From positions 1 to 64,000 of the forward strand of contig QHWT01000056.1 of NCBI GenBank assembly GCA_003222675.1: 64,000 nucleotides of DNA. Direction: 5' to 3'. The notes beneath the pieces were generated by a model. The model did no database searches, was not told the DNA's origin, and saw nothing but the letters and a program-made list of their open reading frames with translations. This DNA comes from Acidobacteriota bacterium (GTDB lineage: Bacteria; Acidobacteriota; Vicinamibacteria; Vicinamibacterales; 2-12-FULL-66-21). Position 1 is the first letter of the stretch; each line of letters begins with the position of its first letter. This document shows, piece by piece, positions 1,926 to 25,117 of the stretch. A program made the position numbers and the translations under genes.

Positions 1926-2770
1926 GCTGGAAGAGGTTGGATGTTCGATCCGATACGCGGGTGAGTCAAATCCCGAATTCACCCACGCCGCTTTTTGGAG
2001 TATAGGACGACGCGGGCAAGAAGGCACGGATTGATGCGCCTGCGTGTCATGGCAGCCGCACTGATGGCGCACTACATTTGCGGTTCGTATTGTATTTGCA
2101 GCCGGCCGGATATAGATCGCCGAGAGCAGCGCCTCTGAGGCGATTGCAATGAAGAAGTGGCAATTCTGAGGGACGCGGATTGCTATGTCAGGTTTTCGCC
2201 AGAACCAGCGTTCTTATTGATGGAGGCCGGAATCGCGTCATGTGGTTGACGGTACCCGACCGAGTGTTTGACTCATGGCACCTCAAAGAGAGCGTCGAGA
2301 CTTCCCTCAGTTTGTGCCCGAGAACGATGCGGATCTCGCACACCCGAACCCTGATCGGATCGATGCGCACCCCCACAGGTCATCGTAGATCTGGCCGGTC
2401 GCGTGCGCTTAATCGACGATTCCTGATACGACCACGTTGGCGAATGCTCGCGGTGTTACCGTGAGGTTCGGGCGCTGCAGCAGGCGCCCGGCGGATGGCG
2501 CGGCATAGTGGACTAAATAATGAGGTGATCCCTAATTCGATTCGCACCGCGCAGTTAATTGTCGCGTCAGCAGCGGCGGCGCCACTGAGGGAGTCCCACT
2601 GGCGACGGCCGGGCTTAGCGGAGTGCGGTGGAGCCGAGCGGGCCGCGTTCATACCGGCCTGTTAGCCGCTAGAATAGGCGAAGATGCCGACAGGGTTAGG
2701 GCACAATCAGGGGTACAATCTCGTTTTTGACTCGATTCAGATTCGCGTAAGTGATTGATTCTAAAGACAC
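1926..2770. other. Non-coding gap between amylase and tRNA-Ser
   Basis: About 845 bases hold only short frames without ribosome binding sites or recognisable domains. The part nearest 1925 should hold the amylase promoter on the reverse strand, but I could not pick out a convincing -35/-10 pair. The reverse frames at 2380-2861 are shadows, the last one running across the tRNA. Confidence 0.4.
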
Positions 2771-2860
2771 GGAGAGATGTCCGAGTGGTTGAAGGAGCAC
2801 GCTTGGAAAGCGTGTGTAGGGGAAACTCTACCGTGGGTTCGAATCCCACTCTCTCCGCCA
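2771..2860 (+). tRNA. tRNA-Ser (GGA)
   Basis: The gene is a 90-base class II tRNA with a long variable arm. The 7-bp acceptor stem pairs GGAGAGA with TCTCTCC, followed by G and an encoded CCA. The anticodon loop is TTGGAAA with anticodon GGA at 2805-2807, reading UCC/UCU serine codons. The T-arm loop is TTCGAAT. Its last 18 bases before CCA (2840-2857) recur exactly at 10445-10462, so this tRNA may have served as an integration site. Confidence 0.98.
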
Positions 2861-3266
2861 ATTTTCGTCCGTTGCTTTCAAAAACTTACAGCGCCCGGTG
2901 ATGTCTCGCCGTGTAACGGCGTCCTATCCAACACCTCTGACCATCTGAAATTCGGCCCGCGAGGCATGTAACAGAACGATTTTCTACCGTAAGTTCTTGC
3001 GTCCAGCGAGTCCACTCTCGGGAGAAGCAAGCGCGACGCAGGTCTCAAACCCCCATTGACATTCGTATGACGGACCCGGCCGGCTAGCGCTGATCCTTTC
3101 GGTTGTACCAGCAACGCCGGGCAGCCGGTTCCACCGGAGTCGCTGGACAGCAACCCCAAAACGTAGTGTCAAGCGACAGGGCAATTTGACGCCCTTACGA
3201 GACTAAGCCTGGTCGAATTCGCGCCCGGCTGCTGGCCTGGGTTCGCAGCTCCGGCGTACTCCACAC
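2861..3266. other. Non-coding gap after tRNA-Ser
   Basis: No supported gene. Around 2971-2994 lies a segment (GATTTTCTACCGTAAGTTCTT) that recurs with three changes near 6800-6820. No clear terminator was found. Confidence 0.35.
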
Positions 3267-4049
3267 TCATTCGGCTCGAATTGCGCCATTCAGAATGTGT
3301 GCGTACGGAACGAACCCTGCCTTTTGAAGAGTCTTACGCGATGGGATGTTCGACGGATTACAGCGAGCACAAGGAACGCTCTCAAGCTCGTAGGCAAGCC
3401 GCTTGAGCTCCTGCACGAAGTACGATCCGAAGCCGCGGCGGCGAAATGGTTCAGCGACTTCCATGTAGATATCCGTGTACGGCACGTTGTAGTGAAACAT
3501 GAGGCCGCCGGTCGCCACGGTCTCGCCATCGAGCTGCAGCAGGCACTCGGTGCCGCCCTGGCGATGAGCGATAGCGCTGCGGGTCTCTTGATCCGACGTC
3601 ACGTGATGGACGACCGCACCATGCGGCGGCAGCGCAGTCCCAATTGCGTCGTGAAAGACGATCTTCTCGCTCCAGATGTCTCGGGCGTAGGTATGCAGCA
3701 TGACGGTCAGCAGAACGTCGCTGGATTGAATTTCCATAAAGCGCGCACCGCTGGCTGAGAGGAACGCCTCAAACAGGTCGAACGCACGCGCGCGGTGTTC
3801 AGGCAGCACATAGAACTCGAACATGGTCGGCTTGTCCTGCCACGGTCCGGCGATCGCCACGGAGGCGAAGCCAGCGATCGTGCCACCGAGCGTGCACATG
3901 TAGGTCAGCGTCCAGCCGTTACGCCGGTGAATCGAGTCGTGCACGATCTGGCAGTTCATTTCCTGGCGGTATCGGACCCGCAAGGGAAGGACGGCGTCAA
4001 CAGTCGAAAGTGTGGCGAGTGCAGGCATCAAAACGATGGAGTCGAGCAC
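3267..4049 (-). CDS. GNAT-family N-acetyltransferase
   Basis: This 260-residue cytoplasmic protein is predicted to transfer an acyl group from acetyl-CoA to an unknown amine. The C-terminal third carries the GNAT core: a beta strand DIYMEVAEPF followed by the acetyl-CoA pyrophosphate loop RRRGFGS (R-x-x-G-x-G/A type) and the helix YFVQELKRLAYE. It ends with the NIPSRKTLQKAGF segment typical of GNAT proteins. The first ~110 residues look like a second, degenerate GNAT-like half. The start at 4049 has no strong ribosome binding site. It lies inside the interval bracketed by the tRNA-Ser repeats. The substrate is unknown. Confidence 0.8.
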   Translation of the reverse strand: MLDSIVLMPALATLSTVDAVLPLRVRYRQEMNCQIVHDSIHRRNGWTLTYMCTLGGTIAGFASVAIAGPWQDKPTMFEFYVLPEHRARAFDLFEAFLSASGARFMEIQSSDVLLTVMLHTYARDIWSEKIVFHDAIGTALPPHGAVVHHVTSDQETRSAIAHRQGGTECLLQLDGETVATGGLMFHYNVPYTDIYMEVAEPFRRRGFGSYFVQELKRLAYELESVPCARCNPSNIPSRKTLQKAGFVPYAHILNGAIRAE

Positions 4050-4098
4050 AGGCGCTTATAACAATCAAGAGCAATGTCCTAACGCTTCTCGTTCTGAT

Positions 4099-5016
4099 TC
4101 AACGGTCTTTGACCACCCGACCCGCGGTCAGAAAGCGGCGATAGCTGCTGAATGTCTCGGTCCGGCGAGTCGACTGCAGGCCGCCGCGCAGCACGGTCAG
4201 CGATTCGACTGACTCCGGCAGCAGCATGACTTCGTCGGGATCGCGGAAGGCCACCGCCTTGTAGTGCATCGTCTGGTCATCCCGCTCGATCACGACCCAG
4301 GGCGCGAGATTGTATCGGCGCTGCAGCCGCCACGGCACCCGCACGTCGACAGGTCCGTCGATCCGCCGATCGACGCGCAGCACTTGGTGCGTCTTCGCGT
4401 CCACCCAGACCCGTCCTCTCGTCGCAAGCGGACCCGACCAGTCGAAGCAGTCGTCGTGCCCGCGCTCGTCTTCGACCAGCTCCGGCCTGCTCGTACGGCT
4501 TGTCGACATGAAGTCGATGATCAGCGCCGCGCGATCCTTCTCCCGGCCGTCGCGTACCGACATGAACCGGTACTCGTCGCGGTGCGCGGGGAGCAGGAAG
4601 GCGAGCGCCTCGGGCGACAGGGGATCGGGATCGGTGCAGCCGCTGCGGTCCTTCTTGTCCCGCTCGCGCGGCGCCCGCCCGTTGATGCGGCGAACCTCCC
4701 GAATCACTCTCGCCGTCGATAGGGTGTCGCCATCGGCCTCGAATTCGACGTGCAGCTCTGATTCGACCGTCCGCGAAAACCCGTCCGGCGACCAGTTCGA
4801 CTGGATGGGTTGCACGGTGGACTGTTCGACGCACATGACGCTTTGCGCAGAGCGGTAGTACTCGCCGACGCGCTCGCCGACGCTCGTCATCAGCCCCTCG
4901 ATATCCGGCGGCGCCTGCGGCGCCGCCGAGACCCAGCAGGCACACACCCCGACCGACGCGAGTAATACAAGGCGCGGGTACCCGCGCCGGCCCATAGCGT
5001 TCGCGACAGTTATCAA
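4099..5016 (-). CDS. Secreted protein of unknown function
   Basis: The 305-residue product has an N-terminal signal peptide (hydrophobic LVLLASVGVCACWVSA, with likely cleavage after the Ala-rich stretch). The mature part is rich in charged residues, and segments such as ATRGRVWVDAKTHQVLRVD resemble outer-membrane-lipoprotein-sorting (LolA/LolB-like) or DUF-type periplasmic proteins frequent in Acidobacteriota. No catalytic motif is visible. Translation may begin at the internal ATG 24 bases downstream (MGRRGYP), closer to a normal signal-peptide length. It follows the GNAT gene on the same strand with a 49-base gap, so the two could be co-transcribed, this gene first. Function unassigned. Confidence 0.65.
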   Translation of the reverse strand: MITVANAMGRRGYPRLVLLASVGVCACWVSAAPQAPPDIEGLMTSVGERVGEYYRSAQSVMCVEQSTVQPIQSNWSPDGFSRTVESELHVEFEADGDTLSTARVIREVRRINGRAPRERDKKDRSGCTDPDPLSPEALAFLLPAHRDEYRFMSVRDGREKDRAALIIDFMSTSRTSRPELVEDERGHDDCFDWSGPLATRGRVWVDAKTHQVLRVDRRIDGPVDVRVPWRLQRRYNLAPWVVIERDDQTMHYKAVAFRDPDEVMLLPESVESLTVLRGGLQSTRRTETFSSYRRFLTAGRVVKDR

Positions 5017-5587
5017 CCCAGCTCCGCAGCCGTTGCTCTTGTCGAGCGGCGCGCGGATCTACACGCGTCGCGCGAGGTGGCAGTCTAAGTGGTTCGGGCC
5101 GTGTCGACAACCGGCCTGCAGCGAAGCATCGTTGCACTCGAAGCGCGCCAGGTGCGGATGTTTCCTGATTGCGCACTCGACCGCGGACGTGTTTCGCAGG
5201 CCGGCCGACCGTCGCTGAACGTTGCGAGGATTGCCGGTTGTTGCCGCTCCGCTCGAACTGCGCCGCCACTCGACGAACAAGATCGCCAAGCGGCTTCTTG
5301 CGATTGGCCTTGAACTCCACTTCGACGACCACGTTCATCCGCTACCTTCCTGTCATCAGGCAGAGTCGATAGCCTGATTCATGCCGTGAGGTTCTGACGT
5401 CACGTCACGACTGAACCGGAGGGCTTCTTGCTGCTGTCTTCTTCGCAACGCGATCTGCGCCGATTTCGGCGCGTTGTGCTGTCCGGCTCCATCAAAACGG
5501 TCACTCACGAGACAGATTCGTACCTGACGATTCCGCGTGGCCTGATGCGGGGAGTCGCGGTCAGCGGACAATGGCAGGAGGGATGAG
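5017..5587. other. Gap with a possible short reverse-strand gene start
   Basis: No gene is well supported. On the reverse strand an ATG at 5338 is preceded by a good AGGAAGG motif and reads MNVVVEVEFKANRKKPLGDL for the first ~40 codons, but the frame then runs antisense through the secreted-protein gene with arginine-rich, non-protein-like sequence. It may be the 5' remnant of a lost gene. Confidence 0.3.
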
Positions 5588-6476
5588 ATGATTCGAAGCG
5601 CCGCGGCCGTCGTCCTCGCGCTCACGCTCACGCTCAATCCGGCGCTGGTCCGCGCCCAGGACACCGTGCTCACGGTCACGGTCCTGTCGGCTGACGTTCA
5701 CAACGGCCCGAGCACCGTCACTCCCGTCATCGCCCATGTACCGCGCGGCACGGTTCTGCCCGTCTCGCGCAATCTCGGAAGCTGGGTCAGAGTTGCCTGG
5801 CCCGGCGCGCCTGACGGCGCCGGTTATGTGCACGTGACGATGGGACGGCTCAGTCCGCTCAAGGCTGATGCGCCCGCCGCGAGCACGTCGCCGCGAGCGC
5901 CCTCCGCGCCCACGCCGGAACCCGCGTCCGCGCCGGCGTCGATGACGGGGCGGACTCGCGCGTCAGCGGAAGAGCGTGTCGCCGTGCGGGGCCCACAGGG
6001 CGTGACGCCAATCAGTCACATCATCGGTGTTGGCGGGCTGGTCGGGTCAATGAGCAGCTTTGGTGCGACCGCGCGCGCGTGGCGCAACGACCGTCTCGGG
6101 ATTCAGCTCCGGCTTACGCGAGATACCATGACGAGCGACGTCGCCCCGGGCCGAGTGACGTCTATGCAGTTCGAGCCGGGAGTGGTGTACGCGTTATTCG
6201 ATCACGTGAGCGACTATGTCTGGATTCGCCCGTACGTCGGCTCCGGCCTGAGTTTCCGTCACCAGACGTTGAAGCTCTCCGCGCCTGCTCCGATCGAGCC
6301 CATGTCGGACAACGGTGTGGGATTTCGCGTTTTCGGCGGCGGCGAACTGACGTTCGCGAGCGTGACGCGGTTCGGACTGCGCGGAGCTCGGATACCGTCG
6401 ACTTCCGACGGCGTTCCCAGGATTCGAGGCAGATCGGTTGAGCGTGTCGATTGCCGGACACTGGTACATCAAATAG
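5588..6476 (+). pseudogene. SH3-like/beta-barrel secreted protein, frameshifted
   Basis: The protein starts with a clear signal peptide (AVVLALTLTLNPALVRAQ), followed by a bacterial SH3-like domain (about residues 25-90, with NGPSTVTPVIAHVPRGT), a Pro/Ala linker, and a region alternating Gly and aromatic residues that resembles an outer-membrane beta-barrel. At about 6379-6382 the frame shifts by one base. Before it the frame reads ELTFASVTRFGL; after it the next frame continues AELGYRRLPTAFPGF and ends IAGHWYIK with TAG at 6474-6476. That ending is barrel-like, whereas the unshifted frame becomes Arg-rich and runs to 6610. So the intended product is about 295 residues. The single-base shift is either a recent mutation or a sequence error. 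Ribosome binding site AGGAGGG precedes the ATG. Confidence 0.7.
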
Positions 6477-7060
6477 GAAGGCGCCGAACACGTCGCGCAG
6501 CGACCTTGGAGCACGTACCGATCGCAGGTCGGGCTGCCCGCCGCTCCTTCAAGGACGCCGCTTCGCGATTGTGCGGGCGTTGCCACGCTTGCGCGATTCC
6601 TCGCGACTAGGTGACGACTTGAATCGGTGACGCTGTGAGACACGAGGAGCGTTGATGCGCGCGGATACGGCGACTGGTCATCCATGAAGCGTGGCCGAGT
6701 CGAAGTCGGCGCGGTCGGCCACACCAAACGTGCGCTTGCCTCTAGCCGCACCCCTCTATGCATTTAGTCGCGGCACGCTCTGCTCGCGTGTAACCGATTT
6801 TCTGCCGTGGGTTCTTCAATTATCGGACGGACTCTCACCAGACGCGGAGCCTCGAGGGCGCGAACCCTTGCACATCACTACGCCACTGAAACCACAAACT
6901 GAGGGGCGGGCACGCTTGACCAGGAAGCGTAATCGCGCGTGCGCGGCTGAGCCGCGTTGGTCACAAACTGAGCGTCCTAGCGACTGTCGCCCAGGCGACA
7001 GTAAGCGTTCAGCGAACTCGACGGATGGTGAGGAGTTCCACAGTTGCGGATGACCAGTCG
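6477..7060. other. Non-coding gap with an inverted repeat
   Basis: No supported gene. At 6983-7002 there is a nearly perfect 20-bp palindrome, ACTGTCGCC-CA-GGCGACAGT. A segment near 6800-6820 repeats the motif seen after the tRNA-Ser gene. Confidence 0.35.
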
Positions 7061-7092
7061 CAAAGAGAGACGGGGATTTCTCGACCCCCGCC
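7061..7092 (-). terminator. Likely terminator of the hsp20 gene
   Basis: Read on the reverse strand just after the hsp20 stop, GGCGGGG and CCCCGTC form a 7-bp GC-rich stem with one G-T pair around a 10-base loop, followed by the pyrimidine-rich tail TCTCTTTG. The U-tract is weak, so this is a moderate call. Confidence 0.45.
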
Positions 7093-7104
7093 TCATAGCG
7101 AGAC

Positions 7105-7551
7105 TTACGCGGCGACTTGGACCTTGATCTGCTTAGCCTTGGCTTCCTCGCGCAGCGGCAGCAGGACCGTCAGCAGGCCGCCCTTGTACTCGGCGCTGAC
7201 CTTTGCGGTGTCGACTGTTGGCGGCAACGCGAACGTCCGCGCGAACGAACCAAAACTTCGCTCGATGCGATGAAACTGCTCCTTCGCGATTTCAGTGTCG
7301 AACTTCCGCTCGCCACGGAGGGTGAGGGTGTTGTCTTCGATCGTCAGTTCGATGTCTTTCTCGTTTATGTCGGAGAGCTCGGCCTTGAGCACCAACTCGC
7401 GCTTGCCGTTGCTGTAAATGTCGACCGCCGGCACCCACGAGCCGGGGGCAAGTTCTTCCTGAGGGCGGCCGTAGAGCCCCTCGAGGGCGCGGCTCATCCG
7501 CTCCTGATACGCGGCCACGTCGCGCGATGAATCCCAACGAACCATAGTCAT
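7105..7551 (-). CDS. Hsp20/alpha-crystallin small heat-shock protein
   Basis: The product has 148 residues, the normal length for bacterial small heat-shock proteins. These are ATP-independent cytoplasmic holdases that bind unfolding proteins. The alpha-crystallin domain spans about residues 40-135: WVPAVDIYSNGKRELVLKAEL, then DIELTIEDNTLTLRGER, then the A-x-Y-K-x-GLL-x-V-x-L motif AEYKGGLLTVLLPL near the end. The start at 7551 has an AGGAG site seven bases upstream. A second ATG lies two codons later. The Shine-Dalgarno sits in the loop of a small hairpin, as in heat-regulated leaders. It follows the 106-residue gene on the same strand after an 89-base gap filled with hairpins. Confidence 0.95.
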   Translation of the reverse strand: MTMVRWDSSRDVAAYQERMSRALEGLYGRPQEELAPGSWVPAVDIYSNGKRELVLKAELSDINEKDIELTIEDNTLTLRGERKFDTEIAKEQFHRIERSFGSFARTFALPPTVDTAKVSAEYKGGLLTVLLPLREEAKAKQIKVQVAA

Positions 7552-7640
7552 GATGTTTCTCCTGTACTGAAACTTTCGGTCTCGCGGCCGGACGTCCGTC
7601 CCGGCCCATCAGATGGACCGGGACGCCGGCAATGCCGGCT
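7552..7640 (-). promoter_or_regulatory. Structured leader of hsp20 (possible RNA thermometer)
   Basis: The stretch contains three inverted repeats. At 7625-7639 GCCGG-CAATG-CCGGC. At 7598-7624 GTCCCGG-C-CCAT-CAG-ATGG-A-CCGGGAC. Nearest the start codon, on the reverse strand, GTTTC (7573-7569) pairs with GAAAC (7559-7555), leaving the AGGA core of the ribosome binding site in a nine-base loop. The GC-rich hairpins could end the upstream transcript. The weak AU-rich hairpin around the ribosome site resembles thermosensing leaders of other small heat-shock genes, but no exact ROSE consensus is present. Confidence 0.4.
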
Positions 7641-7961
7641 TCAAGCAGTCACGGGACCGACGATCTTGTGGAACGTCGAGTTGGACACGTCATAAGTCTG
7701 GACGCGCGGCGTGCCCTCGACCACCGTGGTGAGCGCCTTGAGCACACCGGGATATGCACTGCGGGCATAGATCTCGGCGTTTTCTTTCAGGTCCCACAGG
7801 CTGATGGCGACGGCGTCTGCCCCACCTGGGGCAACGAGCGCGATTTCGTCCTGGAAGCCCTTCTGCTTTCGAAGCATCGGGACGATCTCCTTGTCGAAGA
7901 GTTGAGTGAATTCCGCTGATCGACCGGGTTTGATATGGAAGGCAACGCTGCGAGCAAACAT
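7641..7961 (-). CDS. Antibiotic-biosynthesis-monooxygenase-like (ferredoxin-like fold) protein
   Basis: The product of 106 residues begins MFARSVAFHIKPGRSAEFTQ and continues through EIVPMLRKQKGFQDEIALV and VAISLWDLKENAEIYA, the strand-helix-strand pattern of the small dimeric ABM/YgiN-like alpha+beta barrel. These proteins act on small aromatic or haem-like substrates, or have lost catalysis; no cofactor is needed. The ribosome site is GGAG followed by a short A/T-rich spacer. It is divergent from the XRE regulator gene across a 202-base AT-rich intergenic region and may be controlled by it. Specific reaction unknown. Confidence 0.7.
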   Translation of the reverse strand: MFARSVAFHIKPGRSAEFTQLFDKEIVPMLRKQKGFQDEIALVAPGGADAVAISLWDLKENAEIYARSAYPGVLKALTTVVEGTPRVQTYDVSNSTFHKIVGPVTA

Positions 7962-8163
7962 GTCAATCTCCTTGTGGACGTGCGTTTAAGAAGTGGGGGT
8001 CAGACAACCTGAATTAGTTCAGATAACCTGGAGATTGAGGTGCCTGCCGCAATCACATTAACCATAATAGGTAAATTCACTTTGTTTGTCAAGTAAGATG
8101 TGGAATAATGCTCACTCGGACACGTTAGTTTAATATTTTGAGTTAATTCACGGGAGCGATGGT
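7962..8163. promoter_or_regulatory. Divergent promoter region between the ABM-like gene and the XRE gene
   Basis: This is markedly more AT-rich than its surroundings. At 8009-8022 there is an inverted repeat CTGAA-TTAG-TTCAG flanked by direct repeats AACCTG at 8006-8011 and 8025-8030, a plausible operator. Toward the XRE gene, TTGTTT (8082-8087), an 18-base spacer and TAATGC (8106-8111) could be a promoter. A second AT-rich stretch, TTTAATATTTTGAGTTAATT, lies near 8130-8149. Confidence 0.4.
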
Positions 8164-9039
8164 GTGGATTTCCCCCTTTTCATCAGGCAGCGGCTTAAAG
8201 AATTGAAGACCGAGCAGAGAGATCTCGCTACGGCCGCCCGGGTGACGGAGTCCTACATTTCCCAGTTGCTGACAGGGAAGAAGGCGCCCCCGGCGCCCGA
8301 GCGGACCGAGATTTACGTCAGGATGGAGACGTTCCTGAGGCTGCCCGCAGGAAAGTTGGCCCACCTGGCGGATCTCCAGCGCAAAGAGGTCTTGAAGAGA
8401 AAACTGGCTGCCCCTCCCGCCCCCTTGTTCAAAGAAATGCGGGAGTTGATTCTGCGCAAGTGCGTCGCGGCCAAGAAGCACTCAATCGAAGCGATCTTTG
8501 AGAAGGAGCCCTTCGGCGCCCTCGAACGCCTCGTCGCGCAAAAGCTTCTGGACGTCGTGCAGCGCATGGCCGAAGAGGAGCTGGAAGATGAAACTTGGCT
8601 CCCGCTGGTGGCCCGACTCAGCGGCCGCAGCTACGAGCAGCTGCGCGTCATTGCGCTCGAGTTCCTGGAGACGGACATCTTCAACGTCTCCGCGGAAAAC
8701 TCCGTCACGTTTCTCGATCCATTGATTGAATCGTGGGACATCGACCTCGCGACGTTCGGAATGGAGATCGTACTCAACCGGCGTCTGGCGCCCGGGCACC
8801 GGAAGAGATTTGAGTTCGTCGAACGGGAAGCCGCCGCGGCCGACGAGGAGGCCGGGTTTCAAGCGTTCCTTCAGGATCCCTCCTTGAAGGGCGATGCAAC
8901 CGCGGAAGAAATCGAGTTTCTCAAGAAGCTGCGATTCGCGCGCAAACGGCCGACGGCCCTTTACTATTACCGAGAACTGCAGAACCTGCGAGACCCGCTT
9001 CATTTTCGCCCCGTGTCGACCGAGGAGAAGACAACCTAG
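8164..9039 (+). CDS. XRE-family helix-turn-helix protein
   Basis: The product of 291 residues starts at GTG with GGGAG just upstream. Residues about 5-60 form an XRE DNA-binding domain: RQRLKELKTEQRDLATAARV, then TESYISQLLTGKKAP as turn and recognition helix. The remaining ~230 residues are mostly helical and charged, with no recognised ligand or peptidase motif. A Glu/Ala-rich stretch (FEFVEREAAAADEEAGFQAF) lies near residue 225. It is divergently oriented to the ABM-like gene, so it may control that gene and itself through the shared intergenic dyad. This longer XRE architecture is familiar in Acidobacteriota, but the signal it responds to is unknown. Confidence 0.8.
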   Translation: MDFPLFIRQRLKELKTEQRDLATAARVTESYISQLLTGKKAPPAPERTEIYVRMETFLRLPAGKLAHLADLQRKEVLKRKLAAPPAPLFKEMRELILRKCVAAKKHSIEAIFEKEPFGALERLVAQKLLDVVQRMAEEELEDETWLPLVARLSGRSYEQLRVIALEFLETDIFNVSAENSVTFLDPLIESWDIDLATFGMEIVLNRRLAPGHRKRFEFVEREAAAADEEAGFQAFLQDPSLKGDATAEEIEFLKKLRFARKRPTALYYYRELQNLRDPLHFRPVSTEEKTT

Positions 9040-9441
9040 ACGCCCGTGCCGTCTCCGGCCTCGGTGGAGAGCATTCTTGGCCTGAGCGGAGGCCGGTCCA
9101 GCCGCATCGTACGCGCCGCTCAGATCGAAAAAACCTACGCGCAGCATACGCCCGGACGTGCTCCACTCTGAGTGCCCGGACATATCCGCGAGTGCGGTGT
9201 CGACGAGTTCGAGTGCGCGGGCGTATCGCGGGGACCGTGAAACGGCCGCGACTTACGCCGCCTCATTCGTTCGACAGTTCGCGAGCGGCGATCGCTGAAC
9301 GTGATATGCTGGAATTCCTTTCCTGAAGTTCCCCGGCCATCACCAGCCGCCGAGCTCACTAAAGTGACTGGCGCAGTTCGACTCCGCTTCCGCTCCAGCC
9401 TCGTCCGCCTTCGAACGGTGCACATCGGAAGGGGTCGGCCA
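9040..9441. other. Non-coding gap before the small membrane-protein cluster
   Basis: No supported gene. The forward frame starting at 9301 reads into the next gene but its first 47 codons are arginine-rich and lack a ribosome site, so the internal ATG at 9442 is preferred. Confidence 0.35.
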
Positions 9442-9777
9442 ATGACAGCGACCGCAACAGAACCCATTCACCTCGGCACGTATCCTGCCGCATGGAACCG
9501 CATCGCCATCCACGAAGACGGAGTGCGCAGCGACGATGCGGTCGTCAACCGCACCCGCGCCGTCACACCGAGTGGACGTGTCCGCCCCGCTGTGGGCCGC
9601 GACGAAGACTTGAACGTCAGTTCTTCGATATGGTCGTGGACCACGCTGATGGATGGCGTGACGTTGCTTGGTGTCGTCTGGAGTATTCCGATCGCCGTGC
9701 TGGTCGCTGGGAGCTCTGTCGCGCTCGCGATCGCATTCCTGCTCTGGCTCGTGCGACTCACGCTGCGCGCGTTCTGA
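9442..9777 (+). CDS. Small membrane protein, first of a three-gene cluster
   Basis: The chosen ATG at 9442 is preceded by GGAAGGGG, giving 111 residues (MTATATEPIHLGTY...). The N-terminal ~75 residues are polar. The C-terminal ~35 residues form a long hydrophobic segment (VTLLGVVWSIPIAVLVAGSSVALAIAFLLW) ending in a short basic tail, so this is a tail-anchored inner-membrane protein. The next two genes follow almost without gap (16 bases, then a 4-base overlap) and also encode tiny membrane proteins. No family recognised. Confidence 0.55.
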   Translation: MTATATEPIHLGTYPAAWNRIAIHEDGVRSDDAVVNRTRAVTPSGRVRPAVGRDEDLNVSSSIWSWTTLMDGVTLLGVVWSIPIAVLVAGSSVALAIAFLLWLVRLTLRAF

Positions 9778-9793
9778 ATGGAAGGAAGCACCA

Positions 9794-9943
9794 ATGCTCG
9801 TTTTTGCGTTCGGCCTCGTGTTGGCCGCAGTGCTACTCATCAAGCTGGGGTTTCGTCGGCAGTTGGGTGGGGCGACTCTGGGATCGATGAGCCCTCAATG
9901 GATCGCCGCCCTCCGGGCGTCGCAACAAGCGTCGTCAATATGA
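9794..9943 (+). CDS. 49-residue membrane protein
   Basis: The ATG at 9794 has GGAAGGAAG upstream. The product begins with a single transmembrane segment (MLVFAFGLVLAAVLLIKLGF) and a short polar tail (SPQWIAALRASQQASS). It overlaps the next gene by four bases (ATGA), which indicates translational coupling. No homologue recognised; the good ribosome site and coupling are the support. Confidence 0.5.
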   Translation: MLVFAFGLVLAAVLLIKLGFRRQLGGATLGSMSPQWIAALRASQQASSI

Positions 9944-10206
9944 GGATCATCACGTTCGGTCGCACTGTCGTCGTTCCGGTATCGCTGGTCGTCCTGGCTC
10001 TCGCGGGATTCAGCGCACCGCCCGTCACGATCCGGTCCATGCTCGTGCTCTTGGCAGTTGGCGCGCTCGGTCTCGTCGTGCTTGCGCTGACGAGATCGTG
10101 GCGCGGGTCGAGTCCCGTCCGTCCGCTCACGCGGACGGACGATGCAGTCCAGATTACAAAGGACGACGCGTCGGACCTCGCGCGCATGGGCAGCGACGCC
10201 GGCTGA
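9940..10206 (+). CDS. 88-residue two-helix membrane protein
   Basis: The start ATG overlaps the previous stop (ATGA). Two hydrophobic helices (VVVPVSLVVLALAGFSAPP and MLVLLAVGALGLVVLALT) are joined by a short loop and followed by a polar tail of about 35 residues. It is the last of the three compact genes. Function unknown; proteins of this size are often accessory to envelope complexes, but nothing here points to one. Confidence 0.5.
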   Translation: MRIITFGRTVVVPVSLVVLALAGFSAPPVTIRSMLVLLAVGALGLVVLALTRSWRGSSPVRPLTRTDDAVQITKDDASDLARMGSDAG

Positions 10207-10704
10207 GAAGAGACGGGGACGCCTGCGCGCACCCCGTCCTGCACTACTCATTGTGACCAACGACATCCAGCAAGAACCTATGAACGACTTCGACAACATC
10301 CGGATACTGCGCGAACTGATCGCCGCGCTGGACCGCCGACTGGCGTGCAATGGCGTGCAAGGGTCGACGGCATCGTCGGCGTTCTTGGCATTCCCGGCAA
10401 CGTGCGTTCTGTCACTTACAGAATCTAAACGGTGCGCGAGAGTCCGAATCCCACTCTCTCCGTCACGTTCTAACGTGCCTCCTATCAATAACCTGCAAGA
10501 CTGAGTGATTTCACTTTAGAACCGCGCAATCGCTCGCGTCATCAGCCGATAGGCGCTGCGGGTCGGACAGCGAGCGCGCGCGCAAGAGTCAGTCGACTTT
10601 GGGCCGCGGGTGCAGCTTCCCCGTTGTCGAACGACGGAGTCACCTTCACCATTCACACCTCCCATCGAGGGCGCGTCGGGCGGGACACGAAGCGTGCGGA
10701 ACCG
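10207..10704. other. Junction region: gene-start fragment, tRNA-Ser scar, then empty
   Basis: At 10280 a forward ATG reads MNDFDNIRILRELIAALDRR and then loses protein-like character by about 10340, so it looks like the 5' stump of a small soluble protein. A copy of the tRNA-Ser 3' end follows at 10445-10465. From about 10470 to 10704 I see nothing. Confidence 0.4.
10445..10465 (+). repeat. Copy of the tRNA-Ser 3' end (possible att site)
   Basis: CGAATCCCACTCTCTCCG at 10445-10462 matches 2840-2857 of the tRNA-Ser(GGA) gene at 18 of 18 positions and is followed by TCA where the tRNA has CCA. It is in the same orientation, 7605 bases away. This is what a tRNA-integrating element leaves at its distal end. 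No integrase gene lies between the two copies. Confidence 0.6.
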
Positions 10705-11112
10705 TTATCGCTGGATGATGCGTTCCGCGATCAACCGCATTGCCGGTTTACTGACTAGCTCCTGGGCATAAAAACGCTGTCCCCACTCCAACAGCGTTAC
10801 GTCGACGTATTCGTGCAACCAATCGTTTTCGTGGATTCGCTTTCGCAGAGAGGCGCGGGCATTCGGGTCGGCACCCGCATCGAGGAGCAGCCGAGCGAAC
10901 GGATCATCTTTCAGCTGCGGCGCGGCATACTTCGATTGGACATAGTAAGCATACGACACGACCGTTGAGAACAGCGGCGTGTGGCCGCCGAAACCCTCCG
11001 AGTCGATCGCAGCCCTGGTGTTCACGTCCATTCCACGATCGAGCAGCCAGCGTGCGATCTCGATTTCGCCATAATCGATGGCCAGGTGCGGAAACGTCCC
11101 AGACAGCCCGCC
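10705..11112 (-). pseudogene. Ankyrin-repeat protein, C-terminal fragment
   Basis: The reverse-strand frame from about 11112 to 10705 reads FPHLAIDYGEIEIARWLLDRG, then MDVNTRAAIDSEGFGGHTPL, then ARLLLDAGADPNARASLR, which are recognisable ankyrin repeats. It ends with about 40 non-repeat residues. A TGA sits just upstream of the first repeat, and there is no start codon with a ribosome site, so the 5' part of the gene is missing. Ankyrin repeats mediate protein-protein contacts; with the N-terminus gone the gene is probably not functional. Confidence 0.65.
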
Positions 11113-11399
11113 ATCCTCTCACGCGAGATGCAGCAATCGCTTGTGGCGCCGGGTGTTTTTCACTTCAGAACTTCCAGGGTACCGCTCCCGGTTTCATCTG
11201 GACGGATGAAGAATCCGAATCGGAAAGTCCGCAAGTCACTGCGAGATAATTTCCGCGAATCGTGATTGGAGGATCGAAGGGTTGGGCAATGGAGGCGCGA
11301 CGCCGACCGTAGTGAATCCCACGGGCGCGAGCAGAGCGGGGCAACGAGACGCCGTCGGAACCTCAGTCGCGTACCGCGTCGTACTCCAATCCGACAGTC

Positions 11400-11605
11400 C
11401 CCGACTTCTCGTAAACGCGTCGACTTCTCAGGCTTCAGCATCGCCTCAAATGTCTTGCGGCCGATAAGCAGAATGTAGAACCGGCTGAAGATCTCATTGA
11501 AGTCGATGTCAGGGTCGTGGACGATCCAGTCGCTTTCACCGTTCGGCCCTGCGATGTAGCCGTCGAGACTCATGGCCACGCCGTAGCGAAAGCGGCGCGT
11601 GGGTC
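11400..11605 (-). pseudogene. RibD/dihydrofolate-reductase-like protein fragment
   Basis: The reverse strand reads RRFRYGVAMSLDGYIAGPNG, ESDWIVHDPDIDFNEIFSRF and LLIGRKTFEAML, the characteristic N-terminal third of RibD C-terminal-domain/DHFR-like reductases (start with an M-SLDGYIAGP motif). The sequence then degenerates near 11400. The upstream part of the same open frame (to 11819) is unrelated and overlaps the QueA-like fragment. No intact gene can be assembled. Confidence 0.6.
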
Positions 11606-11719
11606 GAGCCTCCGTTCCAGATAGTCCAGCCATGTGACCCCTCAAATCGGGAAGCCGTGTTCGTTGAGGTACGGGACGACCGCAGATGGAAGGTGCAACG
11701 CGGCGATCTAGAAGCGAGA

Positions 11720-12145
11720 TCGTGAGTCGATCGACCCGATGAGCGGATGCGGGGCCAGCACGGTGATCTTTCCATCCGCCGGCAGTCGGTAGGTCATCCC
11801 CGCCAATGCGTGACGGCACGGAAGCGACGCGACCGCGCCAGGCTGTCGCACTTCAACGCTCCAGAAACCCCGGGCAGGCGGGTCGATAGATGAATCTCGA
11901 ACGCCTCTCGGTCTTCGGCCGTTGCAGACACTGCGGCGTTCAAGGTGCCACTGGTATTGACCACGAGCAGGTCGCCTGCCGAGAGCCATCGAGGCAAATC
12001 AGTGAAGCGGGCGTGCTCGATCGAATTGGTCTCGATATTCGAGACGAGCAGTCGCACCTCATCGCGCCTGAGGCCACGCGCCTCCGGCGGTTCGGCCCGC
12101 TTTCGAGGTCGGCGGATAGTTCGAAACCCGCGATTAGATCGAACG
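11720..12145 (-). pseudogene. queA: QueA-like tRNA ribosyltransferase-isomerase fragment
   Basis: Three reverse frames join into a QueA-like N-terminus: FELSADLE near 12120, EPPEARGLRRDEVRLLVSN at about 12085-12040, DLPRWLSAGDLLVVNTSGTL, EIHLSTRLPG, and after another shift GFWSVEVRQPGAVAS. QueA transfers and isomerises the ribosyl group of S-adenosylmethionine onto queuosine precursors in tRNA. At least two frameshifts and loss of the C-terminal two thirds make this a pseudogene. The motif pattern is of the longer actinobacterial-like subtype, so a transferred or paralogous copy is likely. Confidence 0.65.
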
Positions 12146-24627: not shown

Positions 24628-25117
24628 ATAGATTTCCAAGGTCCGCCGAATCGGTATCCGGCTGGGGAATTGGCTCACTATCGAACAAGGCCGGCGTCTG
24701 CTTCACGAAGACGAACCGGTGACGCTCCGCGGCCTGCGCAACCGCGCGATGCTGGCGATGCTGATCGGCTGCGGACTTCGATGCGGGGAGCTATTCGACC
24801 TCACGGTCGAATCACTGCAGCAGCGCGAGGAAGATTGGGTGATCGCGGACCTCGTGGGCAAAGGGGGCACGTGCGCACCGTTCCCGTTCCGGCATGGGTT
24901 AAGGCGAGTGTGGACGCGTGGACGATGGTGGACGGCATTCAGCACGGACGCGTGTTCCGGTCCATCAACAAAGCCGGCCGAGTGTGGGACGATGGTATGA
25001 CGCCCAAGGTGATCTGCGAAGTCGTCAAGGCTGCCGCCGCCAGGGCTCGGATTGAGAAGCTGGCACCTGCGCCGCACGTGCGCCCGGTTGTGCCATCTGG
25101 CCGGCGGCGAGCTTGAG
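24628..25117 (+). pseudogene. Tyrosine-recombinase (phage-type integrase) remnant
   Basis: Across three frames the forward strand reads RIGIRLGNWLTIEQGRRLL, LRGLRNRAMLAMLIGCGLR (the first catalytic Arg box), CGELFDLTVESLQQREEDWV, IADLVGKGG, then after a one-base loss in a run of G (about 24862) HVRTVPVPAWVKASVDAW, FRSINKAGRVWDDGMTPKV, EVVKAAAARARIEKLAP, and after a further deletion RTCARLCHLAGGELE. The deletion removes the catalytic H-x-x-R box, the N-terminal domain is absent, and no catalytic Tyr follows. The gene is dead. It resembles the XerC/D-like integrases common in Acidobacteriota genomes. Confidence 0.8.

Follow-up and report, generated by a model that had tools for sequence, protein, structure and literature searches.

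The tycheposons of marine Prochlorococcus are tRNA-bounded cargo elements, and the locus considered here resembles them in this description. This locus lies in a 64,000-nucleotide stretch from an Acidobacteriota bacterium of the order Vicinamibacterales (assembly GCA_003222675.1, contig QHWT01000056.1, positions 1 to 64,000), hereafter the window, in which the 3′ end of a tRNA-Ser(GGA) gene recurs as the right end of a 124-bp unit resembling an attachment (att) site. The window corresponds to C24:1-64000 of a 7.16-Mb genome in 152 contigs (G000). Islander-type tRNA islands share with it an intact tRNA gene at one end and a displaced 3′ fragment at the other; of 3919 such islands, 3760 carry 3′ and 159 carry 5′ fragments (PMC4383910). 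Islander differs in that an integrase is required inside each island, so that intervals like the present one would be missed. Cis-mobilizable elements (CIMEs) in accretion arrays keep their att ends, lack integration genes and lie in tandem at the end of a tRNA gene (PMC5704250), features that the present locus may share. In contrast to CIMEs, no parent integrative and conjugative or integrative and mobilizable element was found here, the putative right (attR) arm is conserved across an order, and no conjugation or phage structural genes are among the best-ranked families of the open reading frames (ORFs) associated with the unit. Finally, the ssrA islands of Dehalococcoides, 15 without an integration module and sixteen with it, have in common with our locus tandem direct repeats of the 3′ end of an RNA gene, a conserved motif beside the repeat and insertion in the T-loop, but their target is tmRNA and their integrase is a serine recombinase (PMC3146451).

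The features that define the locus are as follows.

2771-2860, plus strand: tRNA-Ser(GGA) gene, putative integration target and left end (attL side)
10342-10465, plus strand: 124-bp att-like unit, both ends sharp; second copy in the same genome at C28:55258-55381
10343-10360, plus strand: doubled octamer GCGTGCAA-TG-GCGTGCAA, putative arm-type integrase sites
10403-10427, plus strand: imperfect palindrome, 8 of 12 pairs in the window and 12 of 12 in G103
10440-10465, plus strand: displaced tRNA-Ser 3′ end, exact over 10445-10462

The intact tRNA thus stands at one end and a displaced fragment on the same strand at the other, which is the arrangement expected of a tRNA island. The initial annotation had reported a same-orientation duplication of the tRNA 3′ core, and this is borne out: CGAATCCCACTCTCTCCG at 2840-2857 recurs at 10445-10462 on the same strand with 18 of 18 bases identical, and a 20-mer containing it has two matches in the window (at most three mismatches) against 0.01 expected. 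Over the last 26 bases, tRNA and displaced copy agree at 23 positions, and the final three differ (CCA versus TCA). In the whole genome, the 24-base tRNA end has six matches at up to three mismatches, and a reversed control pattern has none. Three of the six are tRNA-Ser genes (C24:2837, GGA; C108:554, UGA; C6:252700, CGA), the others being displaced copies (C24:10442, C28:55258 and C148:35444). The copy at C148:35444-35467 is a solitary 24-bp tRNA-Ser 3′ end that lacks the unit's arm.

The distal tRNA copy is the right end of the 124-bp repeat, in which the doubled octamer is followed by GGCA repeats, the imperfect palindrome and then the T-arm and acceptor strand of tRNA-Ser. The octamer is GCGTGCAA in the window and GCGGGCAA or GGTGCAA elsewhere, and in most units both copies agree. 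The two units of the genome are 88% identical, and at least 22 of the 162 genomes searched in the order have a match to the unit; counts are lower bounds throughout, as five candidates per genome were scored in the unit search, seven in the interval search and 16 in the search for tRNA halves. Besides the window there are 25 places, of which ten cover bases 2-124 of the query and C28 covers bases 1-124; five are short partial matches and the others are slightly shorter than the query. Exclusion of the partial matches (G052, G027, G124, G049, G153) from the 26 places left 21 aligned units, four of them (G059, G029, G122 and one G160 copy) extended to full length from shorter matches. Among the 15 units of 123 nt (105 pairs, an extra G160 copy being excluded as a repeat of the G059 locus), mean pairwise identity is 77% inside the unit, compared with 28% and 26% in the left and right flanks. 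The block of identity between unit and tRNA begins in the T-arm, the T-stem 'J' sublocation of Islander, in all eight units compared with the tRNA of their own locus, one of which (G160a) has a one-base insertion.

An exact pattern from the unit had no match in IMG/VR, and comparison with phage and plasmid collections gave none at E 0.01; a viral or plasmid origin was accordingly set aside. The same applies to an RNA family, since eight loci with 5′ or 3′ halves gave two weak Rfam matches far below the gathering score, which we take as chance. No description of the unit was found in the titles and abstract beginnings of the papers listed on Acidobacteriota islands, integrases and tRNA-Ser attachment sites, which is not proof of its absence there.

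Where both lie on one contig, the position of the unit relative to tRNA-Ser is constant. Unit and tRNA-Ser share a contig for eight of the 21 units, in six genomes, and all eight lie downstream of the tRNA and on its strand; in the DNA scanned, no unit has a tRNA-Ser on its other side or on the opposite strand. The distance from tRNA to unit is 7.6 kb in the window and 5.4 kb in G117 at GGA loci, and 9.0 kb in G093 and 20.1 kb in G014 at CGA loci. Two units stand in tandem behind a single tRNA-Ser(CGA) in G160, where the first is 3.8 kb from the tRNA and the next 12.2 kb further on, and in G161, where the corresponding distances are 11.9 and 2.7 kb. In eight of eight cases the acceptor strand of the unit agrees with the local tRNA, reading TCTCTCC at GGA and CCTCTCC at CGA loci. 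On the G161 contig (C51) we also observed a segment of about 95 bp with nearly identical copies after the tRNA and after both units; it ends in a tRNA-Ser 3′ end where readable, one of the post-unit copies running into N.

Taken together, the unit is probably the attR site of a family targeted to tRNA-Ser, the examined members of which carry no tyrosine integrase and have a rearranged interior. Elements of this kind would insert site-specifically in the T-arm region of tRNA-Ser (GGA or CGA) in Vicinamibacterales. A tyrosine integrase, acting in trans or originating from a lost partner, would pair the attachment site of the element (attP) with the tRNA 3′ end, and recombination would restore the tRNA while displacing its old 3′ end to the far side. 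The attP would combine the doubled octamer and the palindrome with the T-arm and acceptor sequence and, in some members, with a site resembling those bound by integration host factor (IHF). Repeated insertion at one site would stack elements in tandem, and 2861-10465 together with the DNA beyond it may be the decayed, rearranged remnant of such an array, devoid of integrase and comparable to a CIME. We count in favour of the attR assignment that fragments of this cargo accompany the second unit of the genome, on C28.

No tyrosine-recombinase match was obtained within 2861-10341, nor in any of eight intervals between a tRNA and a unit or between two units (phmmer with 20 query frames, and a hidden Markov model built from 14 integrases and run on 11,813 stop-to-stop ORFs from the loci retrieved); no separate search for serine recombinases was made in either set, and none is among the interval ORFs scanned with Pfam. 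Some phmmer matches, that on G117 for example, cover no more than the part of a query frame's tail that stems from the tRNA. The integrase that Islander expects inside an island was therefore not found. The initial annotation had proposed that an integrating element later lost its integrase: the interval indeed holds no detectable tyrosine integrase, but later loss is not shown for the window island, since eight of eight comparable intervals equally have none. Alternatively, the unit family may be integrase-free as a whole.

The tyrosine recombinase nearest to the eight intervals is a 607-aa frame 260 bp past the second G160 unit. An integrase fragment 458 bp past the unit of G023 is related to this frame, and a relic in G016, some 130 bp ahead of a 3′ half of tRNA-Ser, is related to both. 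The G160-type integrase is a candidate partner, since in these three genomes it or a relic of it stands no more than 0.5 kb from a unit or 3′ half, its nearness being biased by the choice of fetched loci around tRNA halves. In the window's own genome the G023 fragment has weak matches only (best E 3.5e-4, 33%). G028 has a different integrase directly after tRNA-Ser, but no unit among the matches listed. A tyrosine-recombinase fragment (PF00589, 25.9 bits, below the cut-off) was seen at 24671-24892 of the window, 14 kb past the distal copy.

Sites resembling WATCAANNNNTTR, which we take to be the IHF consensus, occur on both sides of the tRNA and behind the displaced copy; two repeats of another kind, further upstream, are listed with them.

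2701-2720, plus strand: two ACAATC repeats upstream of the tRNA, compared by eye, with a putative arm-site function
2748-2760, minus strand: IHF-like site AATCAATCACTTA, the sole perfect WATCAANNNNTTR match in the window, directly before the tRNA
2876-2888, plus strand: IHF-like site TTTCAAAAACTTA, one mismatch, 15 nt after the tRNA end, putative P′ arm
10483-10495, plus strand: IHF-like site TATCAATAACCTG, one mismatch, 17 nt after the displaced copy

As 0.36 perfect matches are expected in 64 kb and 29 of 100 shuffles contain at least one, it is the place of the upstream site that is notable, not the count. A perfect match within 30 nt upstream is found at 9 of 13 intact tRNA-Ser(GGA) loci and at 13 of 24 displaced 5′ halves, or 18 of 24 at up to one mismatch (related copies taken singly; the G011 C454 5′-half site excluded as too close to the contig end). 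Downstream, the site after the tRNA has p ~0.008 on shuffles of its 50 nt and that after the displaced copy p ~0.04. An IHF-like site with at most one mismatch starts 14-17 nt after CCA in seven of 28 sequences, both window sites included, and is present at the tRNA of the window, G093 and G117, being perfect in G117. The site behind the distal copy suggests that a further element joined there in tandem.

The interval and its right flank contain the following.

3267-4049, minus strand: GNAT acetyltransferase (PF00583), cargo
4106-5088, minus strand: segment holding a gene for a putative secreted protein (4099-5016); 88% identity to G003 C310:1779-2769, where a QueA-like gene adjoins
5588-6610, plus strand: putative secreted protein, SH3_3 match below cut-off
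7064-9063, strand not assigned: block with HSP20, antibiotic-monooxygenase (ABM)-like and helix-turn-helix (HTH) regulator genes, from Pfam and matches in other genomes
9273-10155, plus strand: block with small ORFs for putative membrane proteins; second copy at C28:65716-66589 (86%)
10281-10341, plus strand: ORF, the start of a reading frame running into the left edge of the unit (10342)
11642-12138, minus strand: N-terminal part of a QueA-like gene, broken; 87% identity to G003 C310:3360-3855; PF02547 in the G003 frame

The initial annotation had listed a GNAT protein, secreted proteins, Hsp20, a regulator and small membrane proteins. GNAT, HSP20 and HTH_3 reach the Pfam cut-offs, the SH3 and antibiotic-monooxygenase matches remain below them, and Pfam gave no match for the secreted-protein ORF or for two small ORFs. 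It had also noted that the distal copy interrupts what looks like a gene start; the ORF from 10281 does meet the unit edge, but a motif search of the fetched loci gave no intact homologue, leaving this point unproven. The GC content has no clear step at 2861 or 10465 and was discarded as a boundary marker. The HSP20/ABM/HTH block is nearly whole in G052, G006, G056 and G055 (77-80% nucleotide identity) and partial in G160, G161 and G054 (75-82%), with the regulator alone in G153 (64%); whole or partial, it occurs in three families (f1, f4 and f6) that are distant within the order, and its regulator in nine of 162 genomes, our own included. Seven of the eight other contigs retrieved with the block showed no tRNA gene, and the eighth, G006 C97, has a tRNA-Ser(CGA) 4.3 kb from it. 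On C28, the membrane-protein block has the opposite orientation to the regulator fragment and the unit. Cargo varies from island to island and includes a HigB-type toxin, DUF433, DUF5615, kinases, MacB/FtsX permeases, glyoxalases and a TOTE-type primase domain. No conjugation or phage structural family was matched by the eight interval ORFs (Pfam), nor by 83 pooled ORFs among the best 25 of 63 Pfam and the best 25 of 50 PHROG families. PADLOC matches were mostly kinases under PD-T4-6 models (best 25 of 55), and we draw no claim of defence genes as cargo from them.

Several results weigh against the view that 2861-10465 arose as a single insertion at the tRNA. The chief one comes from G003, where homologues of 4106-5088 (88%) and 11642-12138 (87%) are 590 bp apart on C310, with an uninterrupted QueA-like frame between them (PF02547, E 1.7e-66). 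In the window this gene is broken, its end being replaced by 5089-11641, which spans the distal copy. Since sequences from inside and outside the interval are neighbours in G003, the interval is not one clean insertion, and at least one rearrangement spans the distal copy. Consequently, the tRNA-integrating element of the initial annotation is upheld insofar as the distal copy ends a conserved att-like unit found downstream of tRNA-Ser(GGA) or (CGA) elsewhere, but not as an intact element, the interval being mosaic. Nor was tRNA-Ser found joined to the sequence after 10465, the empty site by which an insertion would be recognised, in the same-genus G001 or the other relatives searched. G001 (88% complete) has no tRNA-Ser(GGA), and the right flank of the window interval is matched there in scattered pieces only, both among the matches listed. 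No syntenic relative is among the genomes searched, and the breakpoint of G003 differs. The interval was found whole in none of 39 relatives, of which 24 match pieces, often only the HSP20 gene (seven candidate places scored per genome). Synteny at tRNA-Ser was set aside: the tRNA apart, what 12 fetched loci share with loci of our own genome is confined to large families, permeases and regulators for example. An excised circle was not seen either, and a cognate integrase is not established.

Further points against the proposed attR concern the family. The units of G059, G160 (second copy of the G059 unit) and G029 have no tRNA sequence at their end, which would fit insertion at another site with crossover in the T-loop. 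In 13 of the 21 units no tRNA-Ser is present in the upstream DNA examined, nine of these having less than 5 kb before the contig end; the tRNA-Ser-free stretches extend over 11.3 kb on C28 (which has no tRNA anywhere), 29.5 kb in G045, 9.1 kb in G029 and 11.3 kb for one G160 copy. A downstream IHF-like site at 0-1 mismatch is missing from 21 of the 28 sequences, including the tRNA-Ser(CGA) of G014, G160 and G161; the attL side of the window rests on such a 13-nt site, and three of six comparable tRNA loci are without it. Separately, the units at G059 C366:2722 and G160 C69:611, from different families, have both flanks in common as well as non-tRNA ends, apparently one locus that moved between lineages.

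The G003 comparison could also be read as evidence that the unit arrived within a composite insertion into the QueA-like gene (5089-11641), whether by an insertion sequence, by illegitimate recombination or at a secondary site. The unit would then still be an att relic of its family, but its distance to the tRNA-Ser at 2771 would be incidental and 2861-10465 would never have been one island. The window, with only the broken N-terminal part of a gene whose frame is uninterrupted in G003, fits this, as does the similarly scrambled order of unit, regulator fragment and membrane block on C28. We nonetheless regard it as rather unlikely, because incidental placement would not preserve the order of tRNA-Ser and unit on one strand, with matching isoacceptor, in five other genomes, and IHF-like sites stand behind both the tRNA and the distal copy. 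The sharp edges, the unrelated flanks and the four units with at least 9 kb of upstream DNA free of tRNA-Ser would equally suit a small mobile repeat, similar to a miniature inverted-repeat transposable element, that carries a tRNA 3′ end by chance and is not an island end. Such a repeat would hardly agree with tRNA-Ser in side, strand and isoacceptor in all eight units that share a contig with it, and only one to three places are listed per genome (a lower bound), which makes this origin improbable. A chance repeat, or a duplicated tRNA gene that decayed without any integration, might be invoked because only 18 bases are exact and tRNA ends are similar between isoacceptors; given the expectation of 0.01 in the window, the empty reversed control and the conservation of the non-tRNA part of the unit in other genomes, we rejected chance, and this origin seems exceedingly improbable.

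The tRNA-Ser gene also appears to be used from its other side. Five dispersed 5′ halves of tRNA-Ser(GGA), reaching the anticodon region, are present in the genome, and many in relatives; in three loci an integrase frame runs through the tRNA or a displaced 5′ half.

C147:19763: 5′ half
C147:30706: 5′ half
C31:6507-6570: 5′ half
C22:26327-26381: 5′ half
C108:61190-61243: 5′ half
L110:1445-2266, minus strand: integrase frame
L116:3032-4450, plus strand: integrase frame
L101:1499-2380, minus strand: integrase frame

These 5′ halves have a conserved leader and a downstream arm, and on several contigs same-strand pairs are 3.6-11 kb apart. In G009, G011 and G023 the intact tRNA is directly preceded by a tyrosine-recombinase frame, which in G011 and G023 reads through the tRNA gene with the tail RRDVRVVEGARLESVCRGNST; the recombinase frame seen in G036 enters a displaced 5′ half instead. 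As the frame continues through tRNA-Ser, integration would change the tail of the protein. The upstream side of the window has the ACAATC repeats and an IHF-like site, but no integrase match. GTTAGGGCACAATCnGGGGnACAAT (from 2695) also occurs downstream of the displaced 5′ half at C147:30706, and the repeats may have served as arm sites for an element on the upstream side. The 5′-half sites fit elements carrying a tRNA 5′ half, a rarer but known arrangement; we rejected them as part of the same element as the unit and treat them as a separate family. It is possible, as a tentative proposal, that tRNA-Ser in Vicinamibacterales is a two-sided hotspot, with integrase-free islands downstream that share the 124-bp attR and are moved only in trans as att-site parasites, and upstream a family with a promoter, an IHF site, the tRNA 5′ half and a tyrosine-integrase frame through the tRNA.

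The window island resembles the known tRNA islands and CIMEs, with a putative attR module that was not found in Rfam, phage and plasmid records, IMG/VR or the literature surveyed. It poses the question of how an att site can remain recognisable from family to family when no examined island has a detectable tyrosine integrase. In a large and little-studied phylum, the unit provides a searchable end-marker for islands that escape integrase-based finders.

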